Positions 24,906-61,499 of a DNA stretch of 64,000 nucleotides are shown in pieces. Below the pieces are notes generated by a model, which ran no database searches, was not told where the DNA came from, and saw nothing but the letters and a program-made list of their open reading frames with translations. Position 1 is the first letter of the stretch, and every line of letters begins with the position of its first letter. The position numbers were made by a program, and so were the translations under genes. Source of the stretch: Cycloclasticus pugetii PS-1 (lineage in GTDB: Bacteria > Pseudomonadota > Gammaproteobacteria > Methylococcales > Cycloclasticaceae); assembly GCF_000384415.1 (NCBI RefSeq), contig NZ_ARVU01000001.1, positions 2,294,001 to 2,358,000 on the forward strand, written 5' to 3'.

Positions 24906-26156
24906 TTAAAAGCCCATCATCTCTCGATACCCTTGCCACATTGAACGAATCATTCCTTCCGTGACTAGATGCTTTGCTCCTTCAGGCTCTTTACCATCCA
25001 TCTCTATCACACTAGTGTATTCCCCATCCCGAACTATCGCTTTTTGACATAGCTCTGTTGATTCACCATCTTCCATTGAGATAAGTCCAGCAGGTCCAAT
25101 AAGGTTAAATTGCTTTAAACGAATATTTCTAAGCTCTTCAGTGTCGTCTTTATAACCAAAGTAAGTCCAGACTAACTCAAATTCATCCTTACCTTTTGGT
25201 AAGATCTGACGAAAAGCTAGGGTATTTTGAATTTGCTGCAGCACTAACGAAGGAAACATCGATAATATATCCAAGCTATGTCCGTCTTCAAACTCCTGCT
25301 GGCCTGCTAGTAAAGACTCATCTGCTAATGCATAATTTCCTTGCTGCATCGTTCTAAGGTTCTCTTTCTTAACATCGTCCAGAGCACTTTTCTTTTCCTC
25401 TGAACTCTTAACCCAAATTAAGCAGTGAACTTTATTATTTACGATTGATTCACCTTGTTGAGACGATCGATACAGCCCAAAAGTTGCATGAAAGAGGTGC
25501 AATAAACTTGCATGATAAGGGTCTTTGGTATTTTCAGCGTAGAACTTCCAATTCCCTTTAATATATTGCCGAGTTGTACCGAGTATTTCTATCGGCTTAT
25601 TTAGCAGTCGACGCATATGGTAGCTAACATCATCGCCCATATATTCTTCAATATCCGGCGTATCATCACTAAAGGTACCAAAAATCGCACCATGGTAATT
25701 AACCACACGGACCTTACGTAGACCGTGCTTTTTCTTATCAAAGTCTTTTGGCATGCCACCTTTGCCAGCGAGTCCACGCTGGAAGGGGACCCCATGAAGG
25801 TCACCCTTCGCATCATAAGCCCATTGGTGATATACGCAGGTGTAAACACCATCTTCAGACTTACCGTGACGCTCTCGACAAATCTCAGCGCCACGGTGAG
25901 CACAACGGTTAACCCAAGCATAGATTTCATTATCTTGCCCACGGGTAACCACAACAGGGGTATCACCAATATAGGTTGATTTGAAGCTACCTTTTTCTGG
26001 CAACTCTGCGTCAGCGGCTAAAAAATTCCACGTTGGGCCATTATAAATTTTCTCCTGCTCAAGGTCGTAAACTTCTTGATTATTAAACACCCAATAAGGC
26101 ACCGCCGTACAACCTGCATCTGCAGGCCACTTTAAACGATCAAGCATACTTCTCAT
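24906..26156 (-). CDS. RHO alpha subunit without adjacent beta gene, mosaic paralogue of 60246-61499
   Basis: A 416-residue Rieske oxygenase: C85-x-H87 and C107-x2-H110 with YHQW in place of the usual YHGW, and iron site D212-x2-H215-x4-H220 (KDPYHASLLH). It resembles salicylate/anthranilate-type alpha subunits. Residues 39-206 and a second block around 300-364 are almost identical to the paralogue 35 kb away even at DNA level; the segment between has diverged. It follows the RND gene by 63 bases, has the SD AAAGGAG and lacks its own beta gene. It may borrow the beta subunit encoded at 59749-60234. Confidence 0.92.
   Translation of the reverse strand: MRSMLDRLKWPADAGCTAVPYWVFNNQEVYDLEQEKIYNGPTWNFLAADAELPEKGSFKSTYIGDTPVVVTRGQDNEIYAWVNRCAHRGAEICRERHGKSEDGVYTCVYHQWAYDAKGDLHGVPFQRGLAGKGGMPKDFDKKKHGLRKVRVVNYHGAIFGTFSDDTPDIEEYMGDDVSYHMRRLLNKPIEILGTTRQYIKGNWKFYAENTKDPYHASLLHLFHATFGLYRSSQQGESIVNNKVHCLIWVKSSEEKKSALDDVKKENLRTMQQGNYALADESLLAGQQEFEDGHSLDILSMFPSLVLQQIQNTLAFRQILPKGKDEFELVWTYFGYKDDTEELRNIRLKQFNLIGPAGLISMEDGESTELCQKAIVRDGEYTSVIEMDGKEPEGAKHLVTEGMIRSMWQGYREMMGF
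25066..25256. repeat. Second high-identity tract shared with 61149-61339 (inverted)
   Basis: 191 bases matching the paralogous alpha gene in opposite orientation with about 9 mismatches by hand count. It encodes the C-terminal beta-sheet part around FRQILPKGKDEF. Confidence 0.85.
25539..26042. repeat. High-identity tract shared with 60363-60866 (inverted)
   Basis: 504 bases with about 8 mismatches to the other alpha gene by hand count, including long stretches with no synonymous change. Identity falls sharply at both ends. It encodes the Rieske domain and the lead-in to the iron site. Confidence 0.9.
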
Positions 26157-26219
26157 AAGAATACTCCTTTATTAAGCTATTGAAGAATAAGGCTTTAGAA
26201 CCTTCTGCCGCTAGCATTT

Positions 26220-28589
26220 TTAGTTACTTTCTTGCACCGTTCCTTCTCTGTCTTTAAGCGGATAAATGAAACTTGCCAGCGCCGGAATAAGAATAATAGC
26301 GCCCAACATATTCACGAAGAACATATACGCTAACAAGATACCCATATCTGCCTGAAACTTAAGATCTGAGAAGTACCAAGTTGCCACACCAATCGTCATC
26401 GTCACTGATGTAAAGACAACTCCTGTTCCCACCTCTTTTAACGATTCATAATACGATTTCTGTAACGACTCTCCCATTGTCATGTGAGCCCTCATCCGTG
26501 CGAACAAATAGATGCCGTAATCAACCCCTACGCCAACACCCATTGCTAATACAGGCAAGGTAGATACTTTCAAACCTATCCCTAAATAAACCATGACAAC
26601 GTTTGCTAAATAAGCAACTAGAGCCAAGGGTACAACAATACATATTGTTGCTCTGATAGACATAAATGTTACAAAGCAGAAAATACCCACTGCCGCAAAC
26701 AAAATAAGTTCTATTCGAGCTTGCGCTTTAGCCACAATTTCATTTGTTGCCGCCATGATGCCTGCATTACCCATCGCAGGTACAAAGTCGACATGCTCAT
26801 TTGTATTGAGCTCTCTGAAATTTTTGACTGCATCCATTACACGGTCTAATGTTTGCGCTCGATGGTCTGTAAGATAAATTGTTACCGGCATAATCGTACA
26901 ATCATTTGAAAATAATGCCTGAGACATCTCTACTCTGTAGATATTAGCCGATATCATTTTCTCATTCCGTGGGATACCCAAAAACTTAGGGTTCGCTTCG
27001 TAGTTACCAATATTACGCTCACGAATCACTTGAGACAGAGCCTTAACAGACTGCACGCCTTCAACATTTTGCATCTGCCAAACAAAGTCATCGATCGTTT
27101 GCATAATACTGAAATTAACACACGAACCTTTTTGATCGGCTTTTGCTAAGATCACCAATTCATCCAAGCCGACAGAAAAATTTTCCTGTATCGCATTAGC
27201 ATCCAAATTATATTGAGAATCTGGCCAGAACTCCGGTGCACCTGCTTCAACATCGCCGACAATCAATTGATCTTGAACTGATAAAGTGTAAACACTCAGG
27301 CCAAAGGCAAACACCAATACAATTGTTGCATACCGTCTATCTGTTAACTTTGAGAGCATTGCCCAAAAAGAATGGTCAGCGCCTTTAATACTTCCTTCAG
27401 CCCTTTTTAATTCCTTATCAGTCAATTTAATATACGACAATAAAATAGGCAGCATGATTTTATTGGTTAACAGCATCACCGCTACCCCAATACTAGCGAT
27501 TATTCCAAGCTCTCTAATGATAGGAATATCAATCAAGACAATAACGCCAAAACCTACTGCATCTGAAACTAGTGCTGTAGCACCCGGTATAAATAACTTA
27601 TAAAAAGCATGACGTGCCGCACCGACCGAATCTTCGCCATTAACAACGCCAATCCGCCAAACATTGGTCATTTGAATTGCATGACTAACGCCGATAGCTA
27701 GAATTAAAAACGGAACCAGTATTGACATAGGGTCAACACCGTAACCTAATATTTTGACCAACCCCAGCTGCCAACTGACAGAAATCAATGCTGTCGCAAT
27801 CACTGCCAGCGCCAGTTTCATTGAGCCTGCAAAAAAGTGTAGCAAAATAAAGGTAATGATTAATGTAATAACAAAAAAGCTAATTACGCCTTCTGCACCA
27901 TCAATCACATCGCCTATGAATGGCGCAAAACCAATAATATGAATAGCGGTTTCTTCTGTTTCATAAGTCGCTCTGATTTTGTCTAATTTTTCAGCAAACA
28001 ACTCATAGTCAATTTTTTCCTTTGTAATCGGATCAACTTCGACCAAATCGGCAATCACCAAAGCGCCCGATAGATCCTTCGCAACTGTTTTACCTATTTC
28101 AGAAGACTTAAAAAGATTACTTTTAACCTCTTCAATACGTTCAGGTGTTGCAATAAAGTCGGCGGCTACGATTCTTGAGCCCGTAAACCCTTCTTCACTA
28201 ACAGCGACATAGTTAACGTTTGGAGTAAACAATGAGGTTACGGTCCGCGCGTCAATACCATCCATCACTAAGACTTCAGACGTGATGCCTTCCAACACGG
28301 TAAAAAACTCGGGCGTAAACATCTCACCATCTTTATTCTCTACAAAAATGGTAATACGGTTTGCGCCACCAAATTCATCACGGTAATTTGTGAAGGTTTT
28401 CATGTACGGGTGTGACAAGGGGATAGCCTTATCAAACCCTGGAGACAACTGTTGATTGAACCCTTGATAGGATAAAAATACTGTTACCAATAGACCAAGA
28501 GTTAAGAATAATAAACGATGCTTCAATAAAGCATCTGCCATAAAATCAGAAATATTATGCACTAAGGTTGATTCATGTTTAATACTCAT
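26220..28589 (-). CDS. RND superfamily (MMPL-type) transporter
   Basis: A 789-residue inner-membrane protein with an N-terminal span, a large periplasmic loop, a block of membrane segments, a second loop and a second block, the usual RND duplication. Segments such as DPMSILVPFLILAIGVSHAIQ and GVGVGVDYGIYLFAR carry the Asp residues of transmembrane segments 4 and 10 used for proton coupling. Its start overlaps the stop of the YCF48-like gene (TAATG). With DUF1302 and DUF1329 it forms a module often found beside hydrocarbon, steroid or terpene catabolism. Movement of hydrophobic molecules is assumed; the direction is unknown. Confidence 0.9.
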   Translation of the reverse strand: MSIKHESTLVHNISDFMADALLKHRLLFLTLGLLVTVFLSYQGFNQQLSPGFDKAIPLSHPYMKTFTNYRDEFGGANRITIFVENKDGEMFTPEFFTVLEGITSEVLVMDGIDARTVTSLFTPNVNYVAVSEEGFTGSRIVAADFIATPERIEEVKSNLFKSSEIGKTVAKDLSGALVIADLVEVDPITKEKIDYELFAEKLDKIRATYETEETAIHIIGFAPFIGDVIDGAEGVISFFVITLIITFILLHFFAGSMKLALAVIATALISVSWQLGLVKILGYGVDPMSILVPFLILAIGVSHAIQMTNVWRIGVVNGEDSVGAARHAFYKLFIPGATALVSDAVGFGVIVLIDIPIIRELGIIASIGVAVMLLTNKIMLPILLSYIKLTDKELKRAEGSIKGADHSFWAMLSKLTDRRYATIVLVFAFGLSVYTLSVQDQLIVGDVEAGAPEFWPDSQYNLDANAIQENFSVGLDELVILAKADQKGSCVNFSIMQTIDDFVWQMQNVEGVQSVKALSQVIRERNIGNYEANPKFLGIPRNEKMISANIYRVEMSQALFSNDCTIMPVTIYLTDHRAQTLDRVMDAVKNFRELNTNEHVDFVPAMGNAGIMAATNEIVAKAQARIELILFAAVGIFCFVTFMSIRATICIVVPLALVAYLANVVMVYLGIGLKVSTLPVLAMGVGVGVDYGIYLFARMRAHMTMGESLQKSYYESLKEVGTGVVFTSVTMTIGVATWYFSDLKFQADMGILLAYMFFVNMLGAIILIPALASFIYPLKDREGTVQESN

Positions 28590-29557
28590 TATTTACCACC
28601 CCTGTCTGATTTTGTTAATTCACTGATTGACATTTTTTCAATACCGCCCGACATTGATGATAAATAAACATTCTCACCGTGAATAGTTAGCGCGGTGTAG
28701 TCGGCCCGGCTCTTACTTTCTACTGTATTCACCAATTCACCTTGACCATTAATCACCAAAATAATCCCACCACGTCCAACGACTAAAAGATTTTTAGCAT
28801 CATCTGTTATCGCTGAGCCCAATAAAAACTGATCTGTTTTACTATTAATTTTTTTCCATTCTAAAGTCTCAGAATCAAGCAAATATAAGTTGCCACTCAT
28901 GCCAAAAACCACAAAATCCTTTGCTAATTTATTAACACCAAAAAACGAGCCTTCATAAGGAGAAGGCACAACTTGCCAATTCGAAAATTTATCTTTTGAA
29001 TAAAAAATTCCACCACGTTCAGAAACAACCAGCGATGTATCCATAATTTGTTCGATCGCAAAGAGATGATTTTGATACCATTCTTCTACGGATAATAACG
29101 TCAACTTCCACGTTTCTCCCGCATCTTCGGTTACCCAAAGCTCGCCATCTGTGCCTAGTACATAACCCTGCTGAGGGCTAACAAAGTTTACCGACATATA
29201 AAACCGTTCTTCTTCCGGTTTATAACGCTTTATAACCCAAGTTTCTCCGCCATCCGTTGTTTGCAAAATAGTCGATTCATGGCCAACAATCCAACCCGTT
29301 GTTTTTGAGGAAAATGATACCCCCGTTAACGTCACATCTACTGGCGACTTAATTTGTTTCCAAGATTTTCCGCTATCAGTCGAACTTAAAATAATGCCTC
29401 TTTCTCCGACGGCAAAAACTTTATCTTCATTAACATCTAAATCAAGGAAAATTGCTTTCGTTGATAATGGCATCTCCAATGCTGGTCTAGCAAGGGTTTC
29501 CGCAAACGCAGAACCACTCATCAACAGCATTAGACATAAAATAATTCTTAACATCAT
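28589..29557 (-). CDS. YCF48/BNR-repeat exported protein
   Basis: A 322-residue protein with a clear signal peptide (cleavage near ...SGSAFA-ET). It has repeated blade motifs of the photosystem II stability factor type: SSTDSGKSWKQI, QTTDGGETWVIKR, VTEDAGETWKL. This predicts a periplasmic beta-propeller. Such proteins accompany RND and DUF1329 genes in many non-photosynthetic bacteria, where their job is undefined; scaffolding of the transporter is plausible. Translationally coupled to the RND gene. Confidence 0.85.
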   Translation of the reverse strand: MMLRIILCLMLLMSGSAFAETLARPALEMPLSTKAIFLDLDVNEDKVFAVGERGIILSSTDSGKSWKQIKSPVDVTLTGVSFSSKTTGWIVGHESTILQTTDGGETWVIKRYKPEEERFYMSVNFVSPQQGYVLGTDGELWVTEDAGETWKLTLLSVEEWYQNHLFAIEQIMDTSLVVSERGGIFYSKDKFSNWQVVPSPYEGSFFGVNKLAKDFVVFGMSGNLYLLDSETLEWKKINSKTDQFLLGSAITDDAKNLLVVGRGGIILVINGQGELVNTVESKSRADYTALTIHGENVYLSSMSGGIEKMSISELTKSDRGGK

Positions 29558-29584
29558 AATTATTACCTATAAAATTCAAAAAAA

Positions 29585-29613
29585 GACCGAAGCTAAACTG
29601 TCTAGCCTCGGTC
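29585..29613 (-). terminator. Intra-operon hairpin between DUF1329 and YCF48-like genes
   Basis: An 11-base stem with one G-U-type mismatch (29585-29595 with 29603-29613), 7-base loop. Reading leftward, it is followed by a U-rich stretch from the A-run at 29574-29584. It probably attenuates transcription so that the two outer genes are made in excess over the YCF48/RND pair. Confidence 0.65.
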
Positions 29614-29646
29614 CTAATCTAATCATTTAAAACAACGCTGCGCTTC

Positions 29647-31107
29647 TTATCTCCGGCCAAACTTTCTTAAGCCTTGCGGTGTAAAAATGTCAATGTTGAA
29701 GCCAATATCTTCTTCTTTTGATACCACTTTCTGACCACCAAAGCCCATTTCTTTACCTGCTTGGTACTGCCAGTATGGGAAGGTTGTGTATCGGCCATTA
29801 ATCAAGTCCACTTGCATATCGCCTAATGGACCTGCGACATTTGGTCCAGGAATGAAGGCATTGTATTGCTCACCCACACGCCATAAACGATCTTTCGCAT
29901 CATATGCTTCAAATGCGACACCTAACCAAGTATCTTCATCAAAATAAGCGGTATGACGTTTATAAAGATGACGCTGCCCTTCTTTTAATGTCGAATCAAG
30001 AACCCATACACGGTGCAACTCATATCGAACAACTTCTGGGTTGATATGCTCTTCTCCAAAAATTTCATCAAAAGGCAAGTCTTTATTACCTAGTTTGTAA
30101 TTGTTGTATGCAACATATATTTCCTTTCTAACAGGTTTAGCATAATCAAAGCGGGTATGTTTACCACCAAAATAGTGCATCCAACGACTGGCTACTGTTC
30201 GCTGACCATCTGACGCAAATGATGGGCTATCATGGAAACCAATTTCCGGTGCTTTACGAACACGGCGTTGTCCTGGAACATATAAATAAGTTTGAAAATC
30301 AAAATCATTTACATAGTTACAGCCACCAAATACTAAGCCTGATGAACGCGGTGGTTTTTCAACCTGCCAAGAGTCACACAACATAGCGATGCCATCACGG
30401 TTGTACCATTTAACACTTCTGATTTCTGAATCTGCTGAAAACCAATAAGGAGAAATCGTCCGCTGCCGAATAATCACGTCGGTACGGTTTCCATTTGAAT
30501 CGATTAAAGCACCATTAATCATTCGGTCATTTGCAAGCCCTTTGAAAGAAAAAAAGTGGTTATATGCTGCTTCTGCACCTGATTTAGGAATCGGAAACGG
30601 GATACCGCCACCAGCAATATTGTTCTTTAAGCAAACTTTTGATTCCGTTGCATATTCATCACACATTTCAACATTTTTTGCTTGTGCCATGGTTGCATCG
30701 TAGACCCATTTATCGTATGCACCTGTACGGTGAGTAGGGTATACATGCATTTTATAGCTGTCAGGATATTGCTTAAATAAACCAATTTGGCCAGCCGTTA
30801 ATTTATCCATGTGCTCTGTATAATTTTGAGCTGTAATGGTAAATAATGGTTTTTCGTCTGCAAAGGGATCTGCCAAACTATCAACAGTTCCTCCAGCAGG
30901 TATCGGCATCGGTTCACTATTCCATGCAGGAATTGTACCTTCAGCATTGCCGGCTCTCACCGCCCCCATTGGGGTTAACTCAGTATCATTAATGCCCAAT
31001 TTAGCTTCTTCTTCGGCAGTTAACTTTGCCATCGCTAAGCCGGGCAATAATGCCGCTGACAGCACAATGCCTATGGTTTTTTTAGTTCTTGATGTTAAAA
31101 ATTTCAT
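29647..31107 (-). CDS. DUF1329 envelope protein
   Basis: A 486-residue protein with a signal peptide (cleavage near ...PGLAMA-KL) and the family's conserved start LTPMGAVRAGNAEGTIPAW. LolA/LolB-like folds have been proposed for DUF1329 and it is typically paired with DUF1302, as here, 53 bases downstream. Likely periplasmic or outer-membrane-associated and involved in handling lipophilic compounds; the function is not established. Direct repeats of about 10 bases at 31118-31141 lie just before its ATG and provide several SD-like AG-rich stretches. Confidence 0.88.
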   Translation of the reverse strand: MKFLTSRTKKTIGIVLSAALLPGLAMAKLTAEEEAKLGINDTELTPMGAVRAGNAEGTIPAWNSEPMPIPAGGTVDSLADPFADEKPLFTITAQNYTEHMDKLTAGQIGLFKQYPDSYKMHVYPTHRTGAYDKWVYDATMAQAKNVEMCDEYATESKVCLKNNIAGGGIPFPIPKSGAEAAYNHFFSFKGLANDRMINGALIDSNGNRTDVIIRQRTISPYWFSADSEIRSVKWYNRDGIAMLCDSWQVEKPPRSSGLVFGGCNYVNDFDFQTYLYVPGQRRVRKAPEIGFHDSPSFASDGQRTVASRWMHYFGGKHTRFDYAKPVRKEIYVAYNNYKLGNKDLPFDEIFGEEHINPEVVRYELHRVWVLDSTLKEGQRHLYKRHTAYFDEDTWLGVAFEAYDAKDRLWRVGEQYNAFIPGPNVAGPLGDMQVDLINGRYTTFPYWQYQAGKEMGFGGQKVVSKEEDIGFNIDIFTPQGLRKFGRR

Positions 31108-31117
31108 CCTATCTCCT

Positions 31118-31141
31118 TAAACTCTCTTAAACTCTCTTAAA
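31118..31141. repeat. Short direct repeats in DUF1329 leader
   Basis: TTAAACTCTC occurs twice in tandem with a partial third copy. On the transcribed strand this gives repeated GAGAG elements immediately before the DUF1329 SD, so copy changes by slippage could alter translation. Confidence 0.5.
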
Positions 31142-31160
31142 TTATTTTAATTAACAATAT

Positions 31161-32861
31161 TTAGAATGAGTAACTAATATTTGCTTGTATGAAATCACGA
31201 TCCGTACGGCCGTTTAAGCGACTACCCGCTTGATTTAGCATGCCATTTCCGCCATCGAACATAGTCCAACTAACACCACCCGTCCATGTTCCCCCGCCGT
31301 ATCCAAAGTTAGCACCAATTGTTAACGCTTTTCGGTCATCAACAAATAGGGGAACAATTTCATTGGAAACACCTTCAACATCGTATTTAAATGCGATAAA
31401 AGGAGAAACGGATGCGACATTAAACAATGCTGCTTCATAAGTAAGACTTTGCTTAATTTGGAAGCCCCAAAAGCTCTCAGTCACTTGAGGATTAAACACT
31501 GATCTAAAGGCACCACCAACAATCGGCTCATTTTTGGTTGGCAAATCATCAACCCAGCCATACGCAACTTCTAGTAAGGTGCTATTAGCATCTGCATCCA
31601 TAAAGCCAACACCCCAAATACGTTGGAAGGTCATTTGCATTTGATGCCTATCAACGAAGTCATATCCAGTTACCTCGTCACCTACCGCACAAGTACCACA
31701 TAGTCCTAAGCCTGCTGGAAATGGGCCTGCTGCTCCTAATCCTGATAGCACCCCACCAGTCATTTGTATCGGCGCATCTTTTCTTACGTGGTACTCACCG
31801 CCTATCGCCCAGCCAGAAATATTGGTATTAAATGACATACCAATACGCTCAATATTCTCTACGTATTCTAAAAAGAATTGACCGGTTCCGTAAAATGTTG
31901 AGATCATCGGTGTATGGTCATGAAGACTTTGGTAATACAACGCGAGCTCTGTTCCACCAAATACTTCTGGAAAGAATTTACGAATTGCCAAACCATATTG
32001 ACCACCTTCAGCAAACTTATCACCCACTCTTACTAAAGAACCACCTACTAGACCGCAATCATCTAATTGATCAGGCGAAATACAGGCTCCAGAAGGCGCA
32101 CCAAAAGGTAGGTTAGCTGCACCTGTGGCCACACCGCCGACAACACCATCACCTGCCGTATCAAAACCACCGCCTGCACCTACTGCATCGAGGGTAGTAA
32201 AGTATGAGCCTGCTGGATCTAATTGAACTTGGTCAAATTCAAAAAGGTAGAAAGATTCAATAGACCACTCGTCATCAATATTCCATGAAACATAAGCAGC
32301 ATTTGTACCAATAAATGCATCCTTAAGTGCAAGCCCAGGCTGTCTTAGTTTGTTTACGTCAACAGTATTAATATCATTAATTGAGCCTTGAATAAAGGTA
32401 TTCTCACCCCAGCTAATAACCTGCTTACCAACCCTTATGTTAACTTGATCATTATCACCAAAATAGCCATAAAACATTAAGTCAGTTAGTGACAAATCAC
32501 GCGCTAATTTATCATGCGCTTGGTCAGCTAAATCTTCATTATCATACGCATAGTCATAAAAATAATTACCTCGCGCCAGCATGCCATAATCGCCATACTC
32601 TAAGCTTAATGTACTAGATCCACGGATAGAATTACTGAACACATCGCCAGCATCTTTAAAAATTCTATTACCATGCGCGCCGAAATTATCACTATCGGCA
32701 TCTTCTGTACGCATTGAAATACCATACGTTACATCCGTATCAAAAGAACCTCTTAACTCACCTTTATGAAAACTAAAAGCGTGTGCTGTGCCTATTTGAG
32801 ACAATAATAACGCCGAGCTTAGCGCAACACCTGCACTCGATTTTATAATCGATTTCTTCAT
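31161..32861 (-). CDS. DUF1302 outer-membrane beta-barrel protein
   Basis: A 566-residue protein with a signal peptide (cleavage near ...GTAHA-FS). It shows alternating-residue strands throughout and a C-terminal ...ISYSF ending in Phe, the outer-membrane barrel signature. The GKQVISWGENTFI segment is typical of DUF1302. Probably an outer-membrane channel or lipid-binding barrel for hydrophobic substrates, heading the DUF1302-DUF1329-YCF48-RND operon. An FNR-like box lies about 100 bases upstream. Roles in uptake or export are both possible. Confidence 0.9.
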   Translation of the reverse strand: MKKSIIKSSAGVALSSALLLSQIGTAHAFSFHKGELRGSFDTDVTYGISMRTEDADSDNFGAHGNRIFKDAGDVFSNSIRGSSTLSLEYGDYGMLARGNYFYDYAYDNEDLADQAHDKLARDLSLTDLMFYGYFGDNDQVNIRVGKQVISWGENTFIQGSINDINTVDVNKLRQPGLALKDAFIGTNAAYVSWNIDDEWSIESFYLFEFDQVQLDPAGSYFTTLDAVGAGGGFDTAGDGVVGGVATGAANLPFGAPSGACISPDQLDDCGLVGGSLVRVGDKFAEGGQYGLAIRKFFPEVFGGTELALYYQSLHDHTPMISTFYGTGQFFLEYVENIERIGMSFNTNISGWAIGGEYHVRKDAPIQMTGGVLSGLGAAGPFPAGLGLCGTCAVGDEVTGYDFVDRHQMQMTFQRIWGVGFMDADANSTLLEVAYGWVDDLPTKNEPIVGGAFRSVFNPQVTESFWGFQIKQSLTYEAALFNVASVSPFIAFKYDVEGVSNEIVPLFVDDRKALTIGANFGYGGGTWTGGVSWTMFDGGNGMLNQAGSRLNGRTDRDFIQANISYSF

Positions 32862-32961
32862 GAAACTCCCCCTGTTTAATTTTTACTACACCTTTATATG
32901 TTGGTGTTGTAAAAAGCATACAGGCTTGAACGAGCAGCTGTTAGAAATTTTTCTCAAAAAA

Positions 32962-32975: not shown

Positions 32976-33011
32976 TTTTATTTTTTCTAACTACATGATT
33001 TTATTTACTCC

Positions 33012-53187: not shown

Positions 53188-53595
53188 ATGAGCGAAGCAA
53201 ACCAAACAAGCGAACAACAAACAACAATGTATGACTGGATTGGCGGCGAAGAAGGCGTCCGTAAGCTAGTTAATCGGTTTTACGACATTATGGACTCGGA
53301 CGAAGAGGCAAAAACTATTCGAGCCATGCATAAAGATGACTTAACCAATATTCGAGATGGTTTATTTGAGTACCTTTCTGGTTGGTTAGGTGGCCCACCG
53401 CTATATGTTGCGAAACATGGCAGCCCCTGCATTACTAAACAACATAAGCCCTTTAAGATTGATCAGCAAGCATCCAATGCTTGGATGCACTGCATGCAAC
53501 AAGCCATGAAAGATGTTGATATTGATAAAAAATATCGTGACATGTTAACACCTGCTTTTCAGCGCATCTGCGATACCCTAATGAATCATCATTAA
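53188..53595 (+). CDS. Group II truncated haemoglobin
   Basis: A 135-residue 2-on-2 globin: MYDWIGGEEGVRKLVNRFYD at the N-terminus, LSGWLGGPPLYVAKHG around the proximal region, and a Trp at G8 (NAWMHCM), all typical of group II. Binds oxygen or NO; proposed roles are oxygen delivery to oxygenases or NO detoxification. Faces away from trpB, with an FNR-like box upstream and its own terminator. Near the dioxygenase genes, oxygen supply is an attractive inference. Confidence 0.9.
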   Translation: MSEANQTSEQQTTMYDWIGGEEGVRKLVNRFYDIMDSDEEAKTIRAMHKDDLTNIRDGLFEYLSGWLGGPPLYVAKHGSPCITKQHKPFKIDQQASNAWMHCMQQAMKDVDIDKKYRDMLTPAFQRICDTLMNHH

Positions 53596-53650
53596 CACTC
53601 AATCATCTTGCTCTAGCTAATCATGTCATTGATTGCTATCTGCACAATAA

Positions 53651-53677
53651 AAAGGGCGCCTTTGGCGCCCTTTTTTT
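53651..53677. terminator. Bidirectional terminator between haemoglobin and extradiol genes
   Basis: The perfect stem AAAGGGCGCC / GGCGCCCTTT with a 3-base loop and a T7 run. It serves both the rightward globin and the leftward extradiol gene. Confidence 0.92.
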
Positions 53678-53692
53678 GATACTAAATATTAC

Positions 53693-54589
53693 TTAAATAT
53701 CAACATTCATTCCATAACCGGTAGCTTCTGGCTTGTGACCAAAAATATCTCCAGTGTAATGCTCTTGCTCTCTCACTGCTTCACGTGCGCCATGGCCTAA
53801 TTCTAACAACCATCCAGATGGTGTAGCAAAGTAGAACGTATAGGCTTGGTCATTCGAATGCTTTCCAAGCTGCATCGCCACATCAATACCTTCTCTACGC
53901 GCTGTATCGTGGGCTATGCCCAAATCATCCAGCTCTGTGTACTCTAACATTAAATGATTGATTCTTTTTTCCATTGGGCCAAGTCCAAATGCCAATGAGT
54001 GCTGACGATCGTTACAGTGCATAAAAACTGGTTTTGCAATCATGCCATTAGGTAACTTAATTTTATATTCAACAGATCCTTCAAGACCTAACATTGAATA
54101 AAACGCATATGTGGCATCATCATCTAGTGAACGAATAATGAAATGCCCAATACCTTGGTTACCAGTTAGAAACTTGCCATACATTGGTCGACCCGGGTGA
54201 AAAGGCTTCATTACATCCATTTGAGGGCTGTAGAAAATTTCTGTCGGGTTGCCTGATGGGTCCTCTAATTTAAGCAGGCCTAAAACGAAACGCTCTTCAC
54301 ATTCTTCTTCAGACGCTACACGAAAATCAACGCCATTAGCTGTTAAGTGTTGCTGCATCGCTTTGAATTCTTCAAAGCCTTTTACTCTCCAACCTGCATA
54401 TGCCAAATCGTCTTCATCTGATTGATGAACTGTAAAGCGGTGATGCTGACCATCCATTCTTAGGTAAAAGCGATCATCGCGATCACCTTCTTCGATTTCC
54501 AAACCAACACATTTCGTTGCGTACTCACGCCATGCGTCCATATCTGTGACGTTAAACCCCATATAGCCTAACTCTATTACTTTTACCAT
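53693..54589 (-). CDS. phnC: Extradiol ring-cleavage dioxygenase (dihydroxynaphthalene type)
   Basis: A 298-residue two-domain vicinal-oxygen-chelate dioxygenase. The likely iron ligands are His in GIGHFII, His in QHSLAFG and Glu in LLELGHGA of the C-terminal domain. The N-terminal domain is a degenerate repeat. NahC/BphC-like enzymes open 1,2-dihydroxynaphthalene or dihydroxybiphenyl. It follows the RHO beta gene by 45 bases. The product would go to the hydrolase at 24 kb or the isomerase at 49 kb. Confidence 0.92.
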   Translation of the reverse strand: MVKVIELGYMGFNVTDMDAWREYATKCVGLEIEEGDRDDRFYLRMDGQHHRFTVHQSDEDDLAYAGWRVKGFEEFKAMQQHLTANGVDFRVASEEECEERFVLGLLKLEDPSGNPTEIFYSPQMDVMKPFHPGRPMYGKFLTGNQGIGHFIIRSLDDDATYAFYSMLGLEGSVEYKIKLPNGMIAKPVFMHCNDRQHSLAFGLGPMEKRINHLMLEYTELDDLGIAHDTARREGIDVAMQLGKHSNDQAYTFYFATPSGWLLELGHGAREAVREQEHYTGDIFGHKPEATGYGMNVDI

Positions 54590-54634
54590 TTGTTAAATCC
54601 TCTTATTTTAGTTTTAAAACTTACCGCTTATCGA

Positions 54635-55168
54635 TCAGAAGAATATATATAAATTTTTATCTTCCGTTACTCTAGCATCTAGAGACACCTTACGCCGTAC
54701 TAACTGAAAGCCATTACCCACTTTTCGTATTAAATCTTGACGGCAGCCTACATGCTCGGAGTGTTCTAACTGTCCTCTATGGCGATACACGACAAAATTA
54801 CTGCGCACAACAAACTCATCGTCTTTATCAGTATGAAACGCCTCAATATTGGTAATAAGATAACGAACCGTTGAGCGTGGATCTTCCATCCACACCGCCC
54901 CTGTTAGCAACCGCGCCACTCGATCCTTTACTTCATCATAATCGTCATTATATATTGCCATGTCATATGGCGTAGGTTCAGGGCGCTTATCTTTAGAGTA
55001 ACGGCGCTCTGTCACTGGCATCCAGTAATGCAAATCTTTGGCAACAAAGGTCTCAATCCATGTATTAAACTCTCCATTTTGAAGCAACGTCGCTTCTTGA
55101 TAATAATGTTGAGATAACTCGTAATGTAGCTCTGAAGATACGCGTTCTTTCGCTTCAGTATTATGCAT
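54635..55168 (-). CDS. phnA2: PAH dioxygenase beta subunit
   Basis: A 177-residue RHO beta subunit: YYQEATLLQNGEFNTWIE, LHYWMPV, DPRSTVRYLITNIEA and the C-terminal LVRRKVSLDARVTEDKNLYIFF, typical of the naphthalene/biphenyl group. Starts one base after the alpha stop. Structural partner of the alpha subunit at 55170-56552. Confidence 0.92.
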   Translation of the reverse strand: MHNTEAKERVSSELHYELSQHYYQEATLLQNGEFNTWIETFVAKDLHYWMPVTERRYSKDKRPEPTPYDMAIYNDDYDEVKDRVARLLTGAVWMEDPRSTVRYLITNIEAFHTDKDDEFVVRSNFVVYRHRGQLEHSEHVGCRQDLIRKVGNGFQLVRRKVSLDARVTEDKNLYIFF

Positions 55169-55169
55169 C

Positions 55170-56552
55170 TTATTCGCCCTCTGCCTCTGCCGCCTTAGCC
55201 GCTATTCGGTCTTTCCAATAATTTTTATTTGGGAAACAATCAGCCCAATGTTCATCGTTTGCACGTATATCATCCCAGCTATCAGCCGACATCATTTCTT
55301 GATAAAAGCGATAAAACCCTCGATACGATGTTTCTCCAATAAAACTTGAACCCACAATACCCGGGTAATCTGGGTGCTCACCTTCATACCCTTGCCCCAT
55401 CGTTGAGTTCATCGTACCCTCACGCGTATAATTGCCTCTATTAACGTGCGTTGATTGCACCATATTATCACCGTCATCACTTTCCAATGTACCCGCCGTA
55501 CCGAAACTTCTAACTGCTTGTTTAACAACTTCTCTTTTGCCTTCGTCACTCATATCTTTGTGCACAATGACCCAAGACCATACTTCAATTTCATGTGGCC
55601 CACGTGGGTGCCATACCTTAAAGATATTGGTTCCATATAAAAAAGAACAATTTGGGAAGGTTGAGCAGTTCCAATGGCCATTAAATAACTTTGCTCTTGG
55701 CTCTCCAAGATTCTCTGCCACCTTGGGTATGGTCTCTTCCATATATTTAGCATACTCATCTCTTTTCGCATGAATAGCGATGGCTGCATTATCAATAACA
55801 CCAAAACCATGCCCATGGCGCGTTGTGACTTGAATCCCTAACTCATCAAATGGCATCTCAGCTTGGTTTCCAGCTAGTCCACCCAACTCTCCACCCAATA
55901 CATGTAGAGCAGATGCATGTGTCCACCCAACATGGTAGCCATCACCCACAAAGTTTTCAGTTGGTACTTTCCAGTTACATTTGAGAATAGATTTCATCGG
56001 CGGACCAACCAATTCAGCCCCTTCGCCAGCACCTACCATCCATGTATCTAAGTACCAACCCCAGTCGCCTAAAAAGTCTTCTAAGCTAGGTGCTGTTTCA
56101 TCAAAACAGCCAAAAACAAAACCTCGATAGCTCTCAACTCTGATGGTTTTTAAGCTTAACGAATCTCTATCCAACTCATCGTGGTAGCATTTTTCTCTTA
56201 ATGGCACATCCACCAACTTTCCATCGGTCGAAAACACCCAGCCATGATAGTTACATACAAATGACTTGGTATTACCACTGTCTGCCGAACAAATGCTATT
56301 ACCTCTATGCGTACATGAGTTAACAAATGCCTTTAATGAACCATCAGTATGGCGAGTAACGATCACTGAATCTTCAGCCATTTTGGTGGTAATAAAGTCA
56401 CCCTTCTTTTCCAGCATACATTCATGCGTTAGGAACAACCAACTCCGCCCAAAAATATTTTTTATTTCCCGATCATAAACCTCTTGATCCCAAAAAACTT
56501 CTTTTGACTGTGTCGATGCCTTCGTATCAACCAGTTTATTAATATCTACCAT
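55170..56552 (-). CDS. phnA1: PAH dioxygenase alpha subunit
   Basis: A 460-residue catalytic subunit: C80-x-H82 (CTHRG), C100-x2-H103 (CNYHGW), iron site D204-x2-H207-x4-H212 (GDGYHVGWTH), and the acidic ESDDGDN segment near residue 370. The order alpha-beta-extradiol dioxygenase, with ferredoxin reductase, ferredoxin and isomerase on the same strand, matches the PAH dioxygenase clusters named phn in Cycloclasticus. It makes cis-dihydrodiols from two- and three-ring aromatics by family analogy. The symbol is inferred from this context. Confidence 0.93.
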   Translation of the reverse strand: MVDINKLVDTKASTQSKEVFWDQEVYDREIKNIFGRSWLFLTHECMLEKKGDFITTKMAEDSVIVTRHTDGSLKAFVNSCTHRGNSICSADSGNTKSFVCNYHGWVFSTDGKLVDVPLREKCYHDELDRDSLSLKTIRVESYRGFVFGCFDETAPSLEDFLGDWGWYLDTWMVGAGEGAELVGPPMKSILKCNWKVPTENFVGDGYHVGWTHASALHVLGGELGGLAGNQAEMPFDELGIQVTTRHGHGFGVIDNAAIAIHAKRDEYAKYMEETIPKVAENLGEPRAKLFNGHWNCSTFPNCSFLYGTNIFKVWHPRGPHEIEVWSWVIVHKDMSDEGKREVVKQAVRSFGTAGTLESDDGDNMVQSTHVNRGNYTREGTMNSTMGQGYEGEHPDYPGIVGSSFIGETSYRGFYRFYQEMMSADSWDDIRANDEHWADCFPNKNYWKDRIAAKAAEAEGE

Positions 56553-56573
56553 TTCATACCCCCTTACTTAAAT

Positions 56574-57827
56574 TTAGTCTCTAGCCATTACTGCTCGATA
56601 ACCTTTCCAAAACCCTCGCACAGCATTTTCATCCATGCCCATTGGGCTGGTGTAATCTTCAACATCATTACCACCCATTTCAATAAATGAACGCAATTCT
56701 CCATCACGGTGGACGCCGTTTTGAACCAATTCGACAGCCTCGCCATCTTCCATTGATATTAAACCAGCAGGCCCAACTAGATTGATATTACGCAACCGAT
56801 GCTCATCCATGGCCGCATCATCATCCTCATAACCAAAAAATGTCCAAACTAGTTCTGTTTCATTTGTACTTTTAGGCAGCACTTGACGAGCTGCTAATGT
56901 ATTTTGAATTTGCTGCAAGACGACACTTGGAAAAAGCGACTGAATACTTAAGGCAACATTATCATCCCGCTCAGGAATAAAGTTTAAAACCCGTGTGTCC
57001 TGTAACTGATGTGGGCCTTGCATTTCTCTATTCGCCTCGTCCGCATAATCTTTATAATCAAGATCCTCTTTAGGCGGCGCTGAAACATTAAAATAGTTAT
57101 GACAACCCACTTTATCGGTTATCCCTTCACTAATTTGCCCCTGACGATAAATACCAAATGTTGGGTAAAATAAATGCAATAAAGCACCATGGTAGCTGTC
57201 TCGACTGTTTTCAGCATAGGCCTTCCAATTGCCTTTCATAAACTGGCGAGTATGCCCAATTAACTTAAGCGGCTTATGCATAATACGCCTAATGTTTTCA
57301 CACATTTTTTCGCCAAGAAACTCTTCTAAATCAGGTGTTTCTGGGTCAAAGGTTGCAAAAATCATTTGTGCTACCGTCTCAACACGTAATGTTTCTAGAC
57401 CATGATTTTTCATATCAAAGTCTTTTGCATAACCGCCTTGCCCTTTCATACCCCGCCTAAAAGGTACACCTTTTAAATCACCTTTTGCATCATATGCCCA
57501 CTGATGATAAACACAGGTAAAAGCACCATCATCAGAATGCCCATGGCGTTCACGACAAATAACCGCACCTTTATGCGCACAACGATTGACCCACGCATTA
57601 AGACTACCGTCTTCGCCTCTCGTCAACACGATGGGTGTATCGCCCACAAAAGTTGTTTTGTAATCGCCTGGTTGAGGCACCTCAACATCTAGACCGATAT
57701 ATGACCAAACCTTTCCACGGTATAAATTTTCTTGTTCCAACTTAAAGACATCTTCATCTAAATAAGTTGCGAAAGGGGAATGATTACCATTAACATCGAT
57801 TTTATTGATTATTTCTTGCGCATTCAT
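56574..57827 (-). CDS. RHO alpha subunit, salicylate-hydroxylase-like, no adjacent beta gene
   Basis: A 417-residue Rieske oxygenase: C83-x-H85 (CAHKG) and C105-x2-H108 with YHQW rather than YHGW, iron site D210-x2-H213-x4-H218 (RDSYHGALLH). The same YHQW and ALLHLF features occur in the alpha subunits at 24906 and 60246, so these form one subfamily. It heads the leftward phn operon, 21 bases before phnA1. It may use the beta subunit encoded at 59749 or the neighbouring phnA2. Hydroxylation of an aromatic acid such as salicylate is a family-based guess. Confidence 0.9.
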   Translation of the reverse strand: MNAQEIINKIDVNGNHSPFATYLDEDVFKLEQENLYRGKVWSYIGLDVEVPQPGDYKTTFVGDTPIVLTRGEDGSLNAWVNRCAHKGAVICRERHGHSDDGAFTCVYHQWAYDAKGDLKGVPFRRGMKGQGGYAKDFDMKNHGLETLRVETVAQMIFATFDPETPDLEEFLGEKMCENIRRIMHKPLKLIGHTRQFMKGNWKAYAENSRDSYHGALLHLFYPTFGIYRQGQISEGITDKVGCHNYFNVSAPPKEDLDYKDYADEANREMQGPHQLQDTRVLNFIPERDDNVALSIQSLFPSVVLQQIQNTLAARQVLPKSTNETELVWTFFGYEDDDAAMDEHRLRNINLVGPAGLISMEDGEAVELVQNGVHRDGELRSFIEMGGNDVEDYTSPMGMDENAVRGFWKGYRAVMARD

Positions 57828-57865
57828 ATAACTGTTCTCCTATTATTAATTCAAGAAGCCCTCCC

Positions 57866-57884
57866 ATTGAATATACCCTTCAAT
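57866..57884. promoter_or_regulatory. Inverted repeat upstream of the phn-type operon
   Basis: ATTGAA-N7-TTCAAT, perfect 6-base arms, centred about 48 bases upstream of the start of the alpha gene at 57827. It could be an operator. The spacing is too long for an FNR box. Confidence 0.35.
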
Positions 57885-57985
57885 TTAGGAGTAGCCTTGA
57901 GATTAGTTGCTTTAAAATACCTATCTATCGAGCATGTCTACATAAGACAATAGACAGAGCATACTGTTCCAGCAACCCTACAACT

Positions 57986-58963
57986 TTATTCGCTAAAAAA
58001 GCCGTTACCTGCAGCTAAATTACCCGTCAACTTAATCGCTTCTAGCATCATTGTATGGTCTGCCTTACCTGTTCCAACAAGATCATAAGCCGTACCATGC
58101 GCCACAGACATATGAAGGTATGGAGGCCCCATGATCAAGGCGCAATTACCTGAAAACCCCCATGTTTTAATTGCAATGTGTCCTTGGTCATGAAACATCG
58201 CCAACACAACATCATATTTATCTTCTATACATTGTCTGAAAACGGAGTCTGGTGGCATCGGCCCTTCGACGTTGATACCCAATGCTTTTGCTTGCTCAAC
58301 ACCTGGTCTAATTTCATTGTCTTCTTCTGCACCACTCGCATGCGGATTAAGTCCTGCCACAACTATTCGCGGATCACTAATACCCCACTCTATTAGCGAG
58401 TCATTGAGTTTTTCAATAGCACCCGCCACAAGGTCTTTACTAATCAGTTCGCATACATCACGCAAAGGAATATGGTCCGTTAAATGCATCACTCTTAAGG
58501 GGCCGCTAATTAGAAATAAATAACTATGGCCTGGCTCAATTTCAATAATCTTATCAAGCACATTGGCCATTTTCATTGATACTGAGCTAATTGGCGCCAT
58601 AACCGTTGCATCTACTGCTCCAGACAACGCTAGCTGATCCATTTCTTCAAGCCAATCAGCACTAATTTGACCACAAGACACGTTATCTTGCCCCTTGGTG
58701 TAACTTCCCATGTCAAATTTCCCTGAATCCAAAATATCTATAACAGCAGGGTCATTTGTCTTTTCATCAACCGATTGAATCATATTAATCGTTAATGACA
58801 ATTGATTCTCATCAACAACATCTTGCATCACATCTGCACTACCCACTAAAACAGGTTCACAGTATTGATGAATTTCACCGCTGGCCCATGCCTTAGCAAC
58901 GACCTCTGGTCCTATACCCGCTGGATCGCCTATCATTGTTGCTACAATTGGCTTTTTGTTCAT
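57986..58963 (-). CDS. PdxA-family dehydrogenase, probably catabolic
   Basis: A 325-residue metal- and NAD-dependent dehydrogenase: GDPAGIGPEV at the N-terminus and three metal-binding His regions, TDHIPLRD, GLNPHASG and MFHDQGH. PdxA makes pyridoxine precursors, but homologues such as TphB oxidise carboxylated cis-dihydrodiols. Differences from housekeeping PdxA include HIPL for HLPL and MFHDQG for MYHDQG. Its place between RHO genes, not near ksgA or surA, favours a dihydrodiol dehydrogenase. It is divergent from the Roadblock-like gene, with an FNR-like box between. Confidence 0.82.
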   Translation of the reverse strand: MNKKPIVATMIGDPAGIGPEVVAKAWASGEIHQYCEPVLVGSADVMQDVVDENQLSLTINMIQSVDEKTNDPAVIDILDSGKFDMGSYTKGQDNVSCGQISADWLEEMDQLALSGAVDATVMAPISSVSMKMANVLDKIIEIEPGHSYLFLISGPLRVMHLTDHIPLRDVCELISKDLVAGAIEKLNDSLIEWGISDPRIVVAGLNPHASGAEEDNEIRPGVEQAKALGINVEGPMPPDSVFRQCIEDKYDVVLAMFHDQGHIAIKTWGFSGNCALIMGPPYLHMSVAHGTAYDLVGTGKADHTMMLEAIKLTGNLAAGNGFFSE

Positions 58964-59066
58964 TATTTAGGCTCTCCTAGTTAAAACATTAACGCTAATA
59001 ATTATTTTTATAAAAAATTTAGTAAATATTAGCATAACATTATTTTTTAAAAAACATATGTTGTTA

Positions 59067-59080
59067 TTGATCTACATCAA
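59067..59080. promoter_or_regulatory. Perfect FNR-type box in the pdxA-like/Roadblock divergence
   Basis: TTGAT-CTAC-ATCAA, an exact match to the FNR consensus. AT-rich -10 candidates lie near 59098-59107, which would place the site roughly at -37 to -41 for the rightward gene, suiting activation. It is about 110 bases from the start of the leftward pdxA-like gene. Confidence 0.68.
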
Positions 59081-59220
59081 TTCCATTTCAACCCCATTAT
59101 AAATTATGCAATAAAAACAGAATAATAAGTTGCCATTCTCCTAACTCCTGCGCTAACCTCTGTAGCAACATTACTATAAAAATACAGATAATCAATATAG
59201 AAAAACCTTAGGAGAATTTT

Positions 59221-59607
59221 ATGTCTACACCCGTTCCTTTTGAGTCCCTATTAGATATTGAAGGCATTGTTGGCGCTGTGCGCTGGCGTGAAACTGTTGC
59301 AGGGAAAGGCGCCGTCACTCCTCCTTTTTTAACAGAGTATATCGGCAACATTACCGAGGATCGCGCTGAACGACTTATGGCTCACGCTGAAGCAGCTGGC
59401 CTTGCCATTATGGGCATTAGCCAACTTAGTCACCTACGCGCATCACACGACCCTTCCGTTGTTTACCCATTAGATTCTTATTATGTACATAGCATGCGAG
59501 GGTCAGTTGTCTGCACCATTAATCGTGTAGCTGCATTAATTGATAATGATGTTAACGTCGATATCCAAAAACTTATTGCTAAAATGAATTTAATAGATAA
59601 CTCCTAA
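59221..59607 (+). CDS. Small Roadblock/LC7-like (DUF2173-type) protein, tentative
   Basis: A 128-residue soluble protein. The N-terminal SLLDIEGIVGAVRWRE, then a helix (RAERLMAHAEAAGLAIMG) and later strand-like YYVHSMRGSVVCTINR resemble the alternating pattern of Roadblock/LC7 domains such as DUF2173; the match is by eye. Roadblock proteins bind small GTPases or act as scaffolds. The SD is AGGAG. Monocistronic, between an FNR-like box and a strong terminator, which suggests it is a highly regulated single gene. Confidence 0.65.
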   Translation: MSTPVPFESLLDIEGIVGAVRWRETVAGKGAVTPPFLTEYIGNITEDRAERLMAHAEAAGLAIMGISQLSHLRASHDPSVVYPLDSYYVHSMRGSVVCTINRVAALIDNDVNVDIQKLIAKMNLIDNS

Positions 59608-59631
59608 AAACTCATTAACTATTATCATGCC

Positions 59632-59664
59632 AAAAAGCCTCTTTAGTTGATAAAGAGGCTTTTT
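59632..59664 (+). terminator. Terminator after the Roadblock-like gene
   Basis: The perfect 14-base stem AAAAAGCCTCTTTA / TAAAGAGGCTTTTT with the loop GTTGA and continuing T's. Separates the gene from the following RHO operon. Confidence 0.92.
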
Positions 59665-59678
59665 TTGATCATAGTCAT
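59665..59678. promoter_or_regulatory. Weak FNR-like site before RHO beta/alpha
   Basis: TTGAT-CATA-GTCAT: one perfect half-site and one half with 3 of 5 matches. It directly follows the terminator and lies 71-84 bases before the RHO beta ATG. Weak taken alone. Confidence 0.25.
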
Positions 59679-59748
59679 TTTCTTATAAAAAGACCCCCGT
59701 ATACTCAACGGTTAAATTTATCCAAAAAAAACAAAAAGAGGAGGCCAT

Positions 59749-60234
59749 ATGCCAAACAATGCTATAACCCTTGAACTAAAAAGCGAAATAGAAGACCTAC
59801 TTAACAGCTATGTTCAATGCATCGATGATGATGATTTAGAAAACTGGCCAAATTTTTTTACTGACCAGTGCTTATATCAAATCATTCCAAGAGAAAACCA
59901 TGAAATAGGCTTACCAACTGCTGTGATGTGGTGTGATAGCCGCGGCATGCTAGAGGACCGCATTACCGCGTTACGTCATGCTAATGTCTATCAAGTTCAA
60001 TGGTATCGCCATATTATTAGCAACCCTGTTATTACAACTGATGACGGCGAAACATTTCACGTACAGTCAAATTATGCAGTATTCAAAACCTGTAATGACG
60101 GAGAAAGTACTGTTTATAACGTTGGCCGTTATGTTGATGAGATTGTCCGCGATAAAGGCGCTCTTAAATTTAAAAAACGAAGCGCTATTTACGACACTCA
60201 TCGAATCACTACCCTATTGGTCATCCCTGTTTAA
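59749..60234 (+). CDS. Ring-hydroxylating oxygenase beta subunit
   Basis: A 161-residue RHO beta subunit: LLNSYVQCIDDDDLENWPNF and CLYQIIPRENHE, typical of the small subunits that accompany salicylate/anthranilate-type alpha subunits. SD GAGGAGG. It precedes its alpha gene, 11 bases upstream, so the order is beta-alpha, opposite to the other pairs. It could also serve the beta-less alpha subunits at 24906 and 56574. Confidence 0.87.
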   Translation: MPNNAITLELKSEIEDLLNSYVQCIDDDDLENWPNFFTDQCLYQIIPRENHEIGLPTAVMWCDSRGMLEDRITALRHANVYQVQWYRHIISNPVITTDDGETFHVQSNYAVFKTCNDGESTVYNVGRYVDEIVRDKGALKFKKRSAIYDTHRITTLLVIPV

Positions 60235-60245
60235 GGAGAAAAATA

Positions 60246-61499
60246 ATGAATGCAATAACACCTCCACATTTAAAATGGTCTGCTGACGAAAGCCACACCT
60301 CAGTACCGTATTCCGTTTTTAATGATCAGGAAGTCTACGATCTGGAGCAAGCCAGAATCTACAATGGCCCAACGTGGAATTTTTTAGCCGCTGATGCAGA
60401 ACTGCCAGAAAAAGGTAGCTTCAAATCAACCTATATTGGTGATACCCCTGTTGTCGTTACCCGTGGGCAAGATAATGAAATCTATGCTTGGGTTAACCGT
60501 TGTGCTCACCGTGGCGCTGAGATTTGTCGAGAGCGTCACGGTAAGTCTGAAGATGGTGCTTACACATGTGTATATCACCAATGGGCTTATGATGCGAAGG
60601 GTGACCTTCATGGGGTCCCCTTCCAGCGTGGACTCGCTGGCAAAGGTGGCATGCCAAAAGACTTTGATAAGAAAAAGCACGGTCTACGTAAGGTCCGTGT
60701 GGTTAATTACCATGGTGCGATTTTTGGTACCTTTAGCGATGATACGCCGGATATTGAAGAATATATGGGCGATGATGTTAGCTACCATATGCGTCGACTG
60801 CTAAATAAGCCGATAGAAATACTCGGTACAACTCGGCAATATATTAAAGGGAATTGGAAGTTCTACTCAGAAAACACCAAAGACCCTTACCATGCAAGCT
60901 TGTTACATCTCTTCCATGCAACCTTTGGGCTATATAGATCTTCACAAAAAGGTGAGTCCATCGCCAACAACGACTATCACTCGATCCTATGGGCAAGTGG
61001 TGGTACTGAAGATGAGACCGCTCTTGATGACATGAAGAAAGATAAGCTTAGAACGCTTCAAACTGGCGAATATGAGCTTAAAGATATGTCTTTATTAGCT
61101 GGTAAACAAGAATTCGAAGATGGCGTAACTTTAGTTATCTTGTCACTTTTTCCTTCGTTAGTTGTACAGCAAATTCAAAATACCCTCGCTTTTCGTCAGA
61201 TCTTACCGAAAGGCAAGGATGAATTTGAGTTAGTCTGGACTTACTTTGGTTATAAAGATGACACCGAAGAACTTAGAAATATTCGTTTAAAGCAATTTAA
61301 CCTTATTGGACCTGCTGGACTTATCTCAATGGAAGATGGCGAGTCAACAGAATTGTGCCAAAATGCCATTATCAGGGATGGTGAGTTTACAAACGTTATC
61401 CGTATGGCTGGTGATGAAGCGAAGGGAGACGACCACCTTGTTACTGAAGGTTTGATCCGAGGCTTATGGAAAGGTTACCGAGAAATAATGGACTTCTAA
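60246..61499 (+). CDS. RHO alpha subunit, mosaic paralogue of 24906-26156
   Basis: A 417-residue Rieske oxygenase: C86-x-H88 and C108-x2-H111 (YHQW), iron site D213-x2-H216-x4-H221 (KDPYHASLLH). Its Rieske domain and C-terminal sheet are nearly identical, at DNA level, to the alpha gene at 24906, while the intervening stretch (about residues 208-300) and the N- and C-terminal ends differ. SD AAGGAG. Coupled to the beta gene upstream and closed by a terminator. The residues lining the substrate pocket are expected in the divergent part. Confidence 0.93.
   Translation: MNAITPPHLKWSADESHTSVPYSVFNDQEVYDLEQARIYNGPTWNFLAADAELPEKGSFKSTYIGDTPVVVTRGQDNEIYAWVNRCAHRGAEICRERHGKSEDGAYTCVYHQWAYDAKGDLHGVPFQRGLAGKGGMPKDFDKKKHGLRKVRVVNYHGAIFGTFSDDTPDIEEYMGDDVSYHMRRLLNKPIEILGTTRQYIKGNWKFYSENTKDPYHASLLHLFHATFGLYRSSQKGESIANNDYHSILWASGGTEDETALDDMKKDKLRTLQTGEYELKDMSLLAGKQEFEDGVTLVILSLFPSLVVQQIQNTLAFRQILPKGKDEFELVWTYFGYKDDTEELRNIRLKQFNLIGPAGLISMEDGESTELCQNAIIRDGEFTNVIRMAGDEAKGDDHLVTEGLIRGLWKGYREIMDF
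60363..60866. repeat. High-identity tract shared with 25539-26042 (inverted)
   Basis: 504-base counterpart of the tract in the other alpha gene, about 8 mismatches by hand count, with sharp edges. Confidence 0.9.
61149..61339. repeat. Second high-identity tract shared with 25066-25256 (inverted)
   Basis: 191-base counterpart, about 9 mismatches by hand count. The 282 bases between the two tracts (60867-61148) have diverged while keeping equal length. Confidence 0.85.

Follow-up and report, generated by a model that had tools for sequence, protein, structure and literature searches.

Very probable origin of a chimeric Rieske oxygenase alpha gene in Cycloclasticus pugetii PS-1 by one-way partial gene conversion between loci

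The window analysed here is a stretch of 64,000 nucleotides from Cycloclasticus pugetii PS-1, a marine oil-degrading bacterium whose genome (labelled G000) is a single contig of 2,383,924 bases. It contains two RHO alpha genes, which we refer to as genes A and B, lying 34 kb apart on the same chromosome (Table 1). The Rieske and Ring_hydroxyl_A domains score over the Pfam cut-offs in both, and alignment to TphA2 shows that the Fe ligands His216, His221 and Asp364 and the bridging Asp213 are present in B. The AndAc equivalog model NF041684 gives 557 and 552 bits for the pair, and by these scores, which fall below the curated cut-off of 750 bits, A and B are classed as relatives of the anthranilate dioxygenase AndAc and not as equivalogs; the nearest solved structures over the full length are those of terephthalate 1,2-dioxygenase TphA2 and salicylate 5-hydroxylase NagG. 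B probably corresponds to rhdPS1alpha, judging from its size and the order of the genes around it; that gene is strongly induced by naphthalene in PS-1 and is 98.01% identical to those of P1 and 78-ME, with its beta gene at 99.79% (PMC11099662), which amounts to about 25 differences in alpha and 1 in beta. The excess divergence of this alpha gene over its beta gene could reflect strain-specific conversion.

Table 1. Genes, segments and candidate partner genes of the A and B loci, in positions of the window
Feature	Position	Strand	Basis
Gene A, AndAc/TphA2-like alpha subunit (416 aa) of a Rieske oxygenase; mosaic gene on the recipient side	24906..26156	-	ORF and profiles
N of A, A-type, with 63% identity to B	26043..26156	-	segment alignment
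T1 in A, converted tract covering the Rieske domain and the beginning of the catalytic domain	25539..26042	-	alignment, trees
M in A, catalytic segment kept as A-type; holds the two Fe-ligand histidines and 15 residues fixed by locus	25257..25538	-	
T2 in A, 191 bp long with 9 mismatches; includes the conserved Arg316 and the Fe ligand Asp363	25066..25256	-	
C-end of A, A-type, 96.7% to the G001 A ortholog, 64% to B	24906..25065	-	
Gene B, alpha subunit (417 aa) of a Rieske oxygenase; donor-type gene	60246..61499	+	ORF and profiles
T1 in B, donor-type tract copy	60363..60866	+	alignment, trees
M in B, B-type counterpart	60867..61148	+	
T2 in B, with Arg317 and Asp364	61149..61339	+	
C-end of B	61340..61499	+	
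AndAd-like beta gene directly before B	59749..60234	+	profile and sequence
Rieske-type ferredoxin, 104 aa	49449..49763	-	sequence
Ferredoxin reductase, 340 aa	49859..50881	-	sequence

There is no beta gene adjacent to A, and the beta gene before B is a candidate shared partner for this orphan alpha subunit. Further AndAd-like beta genes are present at two other loci, D and C, and are 87% and 76% identical, respectively, to the beta of B. In strain P1 one ferredoxin and one reductase are reported to be common to all of the PAH pathways (PMC8547461), and the 104-residue ferredoxin and 340-residue reductase in the window are the probable counterparts of that pair; by analogy, A and B probably use the same ferredoxin and reductase. 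We note that the alpha genes of loci D and E share only about 55% and 51% protein identity with B, such that at locus D the alpha and the beta (G000:C1:991368-991850), which differ so widely in their similarity to the B locus, seem to have had different histories. Another AndAc-like alpha gene (56574-57827), 51% identical to B, lies beside the rhd3 genes and lacks its own AndAd-type beta, and a PdxA-family gene (57986-58963) within the PAH cluster is, from gene order, probably the one to which the PS-1 paper assigns the second-step dehydrogenase annotation.

Comparison of the window with itself shows that A and B form its best repeat by far, and that their similarity is uneven. Numbered according to the B gene, the pair divides from 5′ to 3′ into segments N, T1, M, T2 and C-end: T1 (nt 118-621) is 504 bp long with 8 mismatches, T2 (nt 904-1094) is 191 bp long with 9 mismatches, and the 282 bases of M between them are diverged. 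These counts agree exactly with those of an earlier sequence-only reading, in which the two tracts were taken to suggest gene conversion. Identity by segment is 63% in N, 98% in T1, 68% in M, 94% in T2 and 64% in C-end, with cut points slightly off the exact tract ends. The reading had described the tract edges as sharp, which holds for the left edge of T1 but not to the right of it, where nt 622-690 are still approximately 80–88% identical before similarity drops. The 17 mismatches within T1 and T2 are scattered and mostly silent, and the reading frames are intact.

Silent divergence between A and B, estimated by NG86, is a dS of 0.08 in T1 (pS 0.07) and 0.32 in T2, while N, M and C-end are saturated with pS values of 0.78–1.01. 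The longest run without a silent change is beyond that of all 20,000 permutations, and in a GENECONV-like test on the silent sites of 12 sequences A and B are the sole globally significant pair (0/2000). Together with conflicting trees for T1 and M, described below, these results bear out the proposal of gene conversion; the two outcomes named beforehand as contrary to it, a uniform dS and a single phylogeny for all segments, were both looked for and are absent, as dS runs from 0.08 through 0.32 to saturation and the T1 and M phylogenies disagree.

We searched 18 congeneric genomes and GTDB contigs for orthologs; A-locus genes turned up in only two other Cycloclasticus genomes (G001 and G016) and B-locus genes in many species, alongside a third paralog, C. 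Comparisons of the A locus thus rest on three genes, those of G000, G001 and G016, each from a different species. In all three the order of hydrolase, A and MMPL/RND transporter is syntenic; in two further Cycloclasticus genomes, G009 and G006, about 200–305 bp separate the match to the hydrolase from that to the transporter, which leaves no room for A and corresponds to an empty site. Because A is syntenic in two other species, the event can be polarised. Relative to its G001 ortholog, the A gene of PS-1 is 92.6% identical in M and 96.7% in C-end but only 77% in T1, where it is instead 98% identical to the resident B and 86% identical to B of G016. The T1 of the resident B is 87% identical to that of B of G016, as is its M, showing that B-locus relationships were kept and that the donor-type copy was unaltered, as in a non-reciprocal exchange.

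The same direction is seen at individual sites. Among the positions that distinguish A from its G001 ortholog, A has the base of B at 109 of 115 in T1, at 8 of 20 in M and at none of 6 in C-end, and a 3SEQ-like scan finds a B-type block in A at nt 120-621 (109 versus 2; 0/20,000), which persists when B of G016 is used as the parent. In the T1 tree, A and B of PS-1 are joined (98/98) beside B of G016, and an A-locus clade is rejected (AU test, p 0.0096); in the M tree, the A-locus clade has support of 97/100 and a grouping of A with B is rejected (AU test, p 5e-7). The diagnostic sites, the scan and the trees therefore provide strong support for T1 being a one-way copy of B-type DNA into A, and the resident B is the closest to the T1 of A among all sampled sequences. 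At the protein level, 167 of the 168 residues of A equivalent to B 40–207 match B, and all 210 of those equivalent to B 208–417 match the G001 A ortholog, and the A protein is therefore a chimera. Relative to the A orthologs, the T1 exchange amounts to some 18–21 residue changes. We note also that from M to C-end, outside T2 (24906-25538), A is 93–97% identical to the G001 gene while the flanks are mostly at 75–88%, raising the possibility of an exchange of A alleles between species.

The call of direction, from B-type DNA into A, covers T1 only. T2 differs from T1 in its divergence (8/176 versus 8/498 in the tract cores, Fisher p 0.04), and the two are therefore probably separate events, with the T2 exchange apparently older than that of T1, or repeated. 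At T2 sites A has the base of B in 16 of 22, and at four of the five strictly diagnostic sites it has the A-type base; the T2 tree carries a weak signal in which an A clade is not rejected (p 0.13).

The distribution of fixed differences reveals where the identity of each locus resides. Counted across species and leaving out the A gene of PS-1, residues fixed for one state in A and another in B number 15 of 94 in M, 3 of 52 in C-end, 1 of 168 in T1, none of 39 in N and none of 64 in T2, so that 15 of the 19 sit in M (M versus T1, Fisher p 1e-6). M itself differs among A orthologs at 0–5 of its 94 residues, compared to 30 between A and B. Because the fixed differences are gathered in M and M is conserved among A orthologs, this segment is an old, conserved A-type sequence under purifying selection that bears the locus identity, and not a newly diversified patch. 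The sequence-only reading had proposed that the substrate-pocket region was kept or selected to differ: its being kept fits the 0–5 changes of 94, but no diversifying selection or recent divergence is visible.

For the pocket itself we relied on sequence alignment to TphA2, with first-shell contact residues taken from PMC9060491; an AlphaFold model of A had low confidence (mean pLDDT 57) and was set aside. Most contacts are alike in the two enzymes, the same residue being present in A and B at Tyr230, Ile298, Arg317 and Leu398 as well as at His216, His221, Asp364 and Asp213 (B numbering). The TphA2 motif consists of Asn224, Ser243 and Arg390 (PMC9060491), and the position of Ser243 corresponds to Leu248 of B (a fixed Ile in A) if the alignment is anchored on a histidine, or to Ser251 of B (a fixed Lys in A) in the MAFFT alignment; in addition, the fixed differences T295S, V297D and L301M flank Ile298. 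With fixed differences at one contact position and beside Ile298, and the remaining contacts mostly shared, the term pocket segment is a plausible, homology-based label for M as a candidate specificity region. The equivalent of Arg317 is the carboxylate anchor in TphA2 (PMC9060491), and since this arginine is conserved, the substrate of A and B may be an aryl-carboxylate rather than naphthalene itself. A terephthalate role appears unlikely for either enzyme, as TphA2 Asn224 and Arg390 are Tyr and Leu in both. We note that B, probably rhdPS1alpha and thus the gene put forward in the PS-1 paper for the initial step on naphthalene, keeps the arginine, and that a substrate resembling salicylate would seem no less likely for it.

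Several other explanations for the mosaic can be considered. A could be a recent duplicate of B in which the middle and the ends were later replaced from a divergent homologue, and the two genes are indeed highly identical over most of their length; this is very improbable, since the locus of A is syntenic in G001 and G016, where its flanks are conserved too, and the N, M and C-end of A follow the A-locus genes, leaving the B-type part as the import. Strong constraint on T1 and T2, at the protein or the DNA level, with M free to diverge, would fit the unconverted A/B pair of G016, in which pN is 0.08 in T1 and 0.02 in T2 versus 0.21 in M. However, pS in T1 is 0.49–0.87 between orthologs and 0.85 between A and B of G016, yet 0.07 between A and B of PS-1; with silent sites low in one pair only, constraint is not viable for T1, and we give it equally little credence overall. 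Near-identical repeats can be mis-assembled, but an artefact joining two similar genes is the least credible explanation of all, given two distinct tracts, 17 scattered and mostly silent mismatches, intact frames, conserved flanks at both loci and a single-contig genome. An unlikely alternative, although one with appreciably more in its favour, is that T1 came from a B-type gene of another strain or species and not from the resident B: exchange between species in the genus is suggested by the 93–97% identity of M and C-end of A to the G001 gene between flanks mostly at 75–88%, and B of PS-1 clusters with B of G016, in conflict with the atp tree. Against this, no sampled sequence is nearer to the T1 of A than the resident B (dS 0.08), and no closer outside donor is known.

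We consider it very probable that A is a natural chimera generated by ectopic (interlocus) gene conversion at an A locus that predates the event, with an older or repeated exchange at T2 and with M, N and C-end kept. The A locus would already have been in place when approximately 504 bp of B-type DNA was copied one-way into it, after the lineage had split from the sampled relatives; T2 would be a second, shorter tract from an older or repeated exchange, and N, M and C-end would have stayed A-type throughout. The copying could have proceeded by RecA-type strand invasion, either between the two copies or with a B-type copy from another cell. Proxies for T1 before conversion indicate a probable identity of ~77% between the loci, with exact shared runs of no more than ~21 bp; this is a poor substrate for RecA, and an intermediate or an outside donor may therefore have taken part. 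Replacement of T1 was presumably tolerated because this part would serve both enzymes alike, in the cluster, in electron transfer between alpha subunits, with the shared ferredoxin and possibly with a shared beta; if ferredoxin and reductase are indeed shared, the Rieske halves of A and B may be interchangeable, and M not. M and C-end may have been spared either because changes there were selected against, or because the sequences were too diverged to recombine.

The latter could be the whole explanation for the tract edges and the sparing of M, with selection on specificity playing no role, and we regard this as a serious possibility, if somewhat short of even. Exact runs between unconverted A and B genes are shortest in M, N and C-end (14 bp or less), compared to 14–21 bp in T1 and 17–42 bp in T2, and mismatch repair shortens conversion tracts (PMC5485169). 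The runs in T1 are only slightly longer than those in M, however, and the 15 locus-fixed residues of M have been kept across species with near-saturated silent sites, which suggests that converting M would likely be costly.

There are hints of a similar event elsewhere in the genus. In G001, the 5′ parts of the B and C alpha genes are near-identical (GENECONV-like test, pair p 0.0005, global p 0.09), and both genes are interrupted by contig ends at matching positions, on the upstream and the downstream side alike, with 55 bp identical between the corresponding ends (the ends of contigs C5 and C35 and the starts of C1 and C38), an arrangement that would be expected for a collapsed repeat of ~300 bp, although this is suggestive only. 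The corresponding beta genes are 92–98% alike across most of the 3′-terminal two thirds. These observations suggest an independent conversion tract between B and C in G001 that would take in the 5′ portion of alpha together with the 3′ portion of beta; a run test for conversion among the beta genes gave no significant global result. Contig breaks within T1 in G012, another Cycloclasticus genome, and in L040 were also considered as hints of a repeat and discarded, each being a single fragmentary contig and the L040 end looking adapter-like. Recurrent modular conversion among the A, B and C alphas of Cycloclasticus, in which the Rieske half is exchanged and the substrate-side segment is kept by selection, is at present a rather doubtful generalisation; if it is correct, these enzymes would be refreshed by domain and not by gene, along one shared ferredoxin chain.

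Gene A thus offers a clean and polarised natural experiment in the domain modularity of Rieske oxygenases, in which 18–21 residues of the Rieske half, counted against the A orthologs, changed in one step, with the catalytic half unchanged, in an organism with many coexisting dioxygenase copies. It also illustrates that segments of a single alpha gene can differ in age, such that gene trees, primers or markers based on T1 would misassign A to B, a point that bears on the use of alpha genes as markers of hydrocarbon degradation.

Partial ectopic gene conversion between duplicates is already known, and A is a clean further case; a literature search for gene conversion in ring-hydroxylating oxygenases returned only an unrelated mention in a review. 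Ectopic conversion of bacterial paralogs has been described for tufA and tufB (PMC5485169), and cases of long-lasting concerted evolution in bacterial paralogs have been reported (PMC6053082). The A/B pair resembles these in the one-way copying between paralogs on one chromosome and in the lowered silent divergence within tracts, but whereas in those cases near-identical whole genes are kept uniform, A and B are a diverged pair that is only partly homogenised and their proteins stay distinct. Gene conversion also occurs among the pca and cat paralogs of Acinetobacter baylyi, which are likewise aromatic catabolic paralogs exchanging tracts, although the enzymes differ. TphA2 (PDB 7q04-06, 7vju) and NagG (7c8z) have the same Rieske and Fe ligands and carboxylate-anchoring arginine as A and B. 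TphA2 departs from both in its Asn224 and Arg390, the positions of the Tyr and Leu noted above. Chimeras of Rieske oxygenase alpha subunits, with the Rieske part of one parent and the catalytic part of another, have been constructed in the laboratory; A, by comparison, is of natural origin and forms part of a complete genome.
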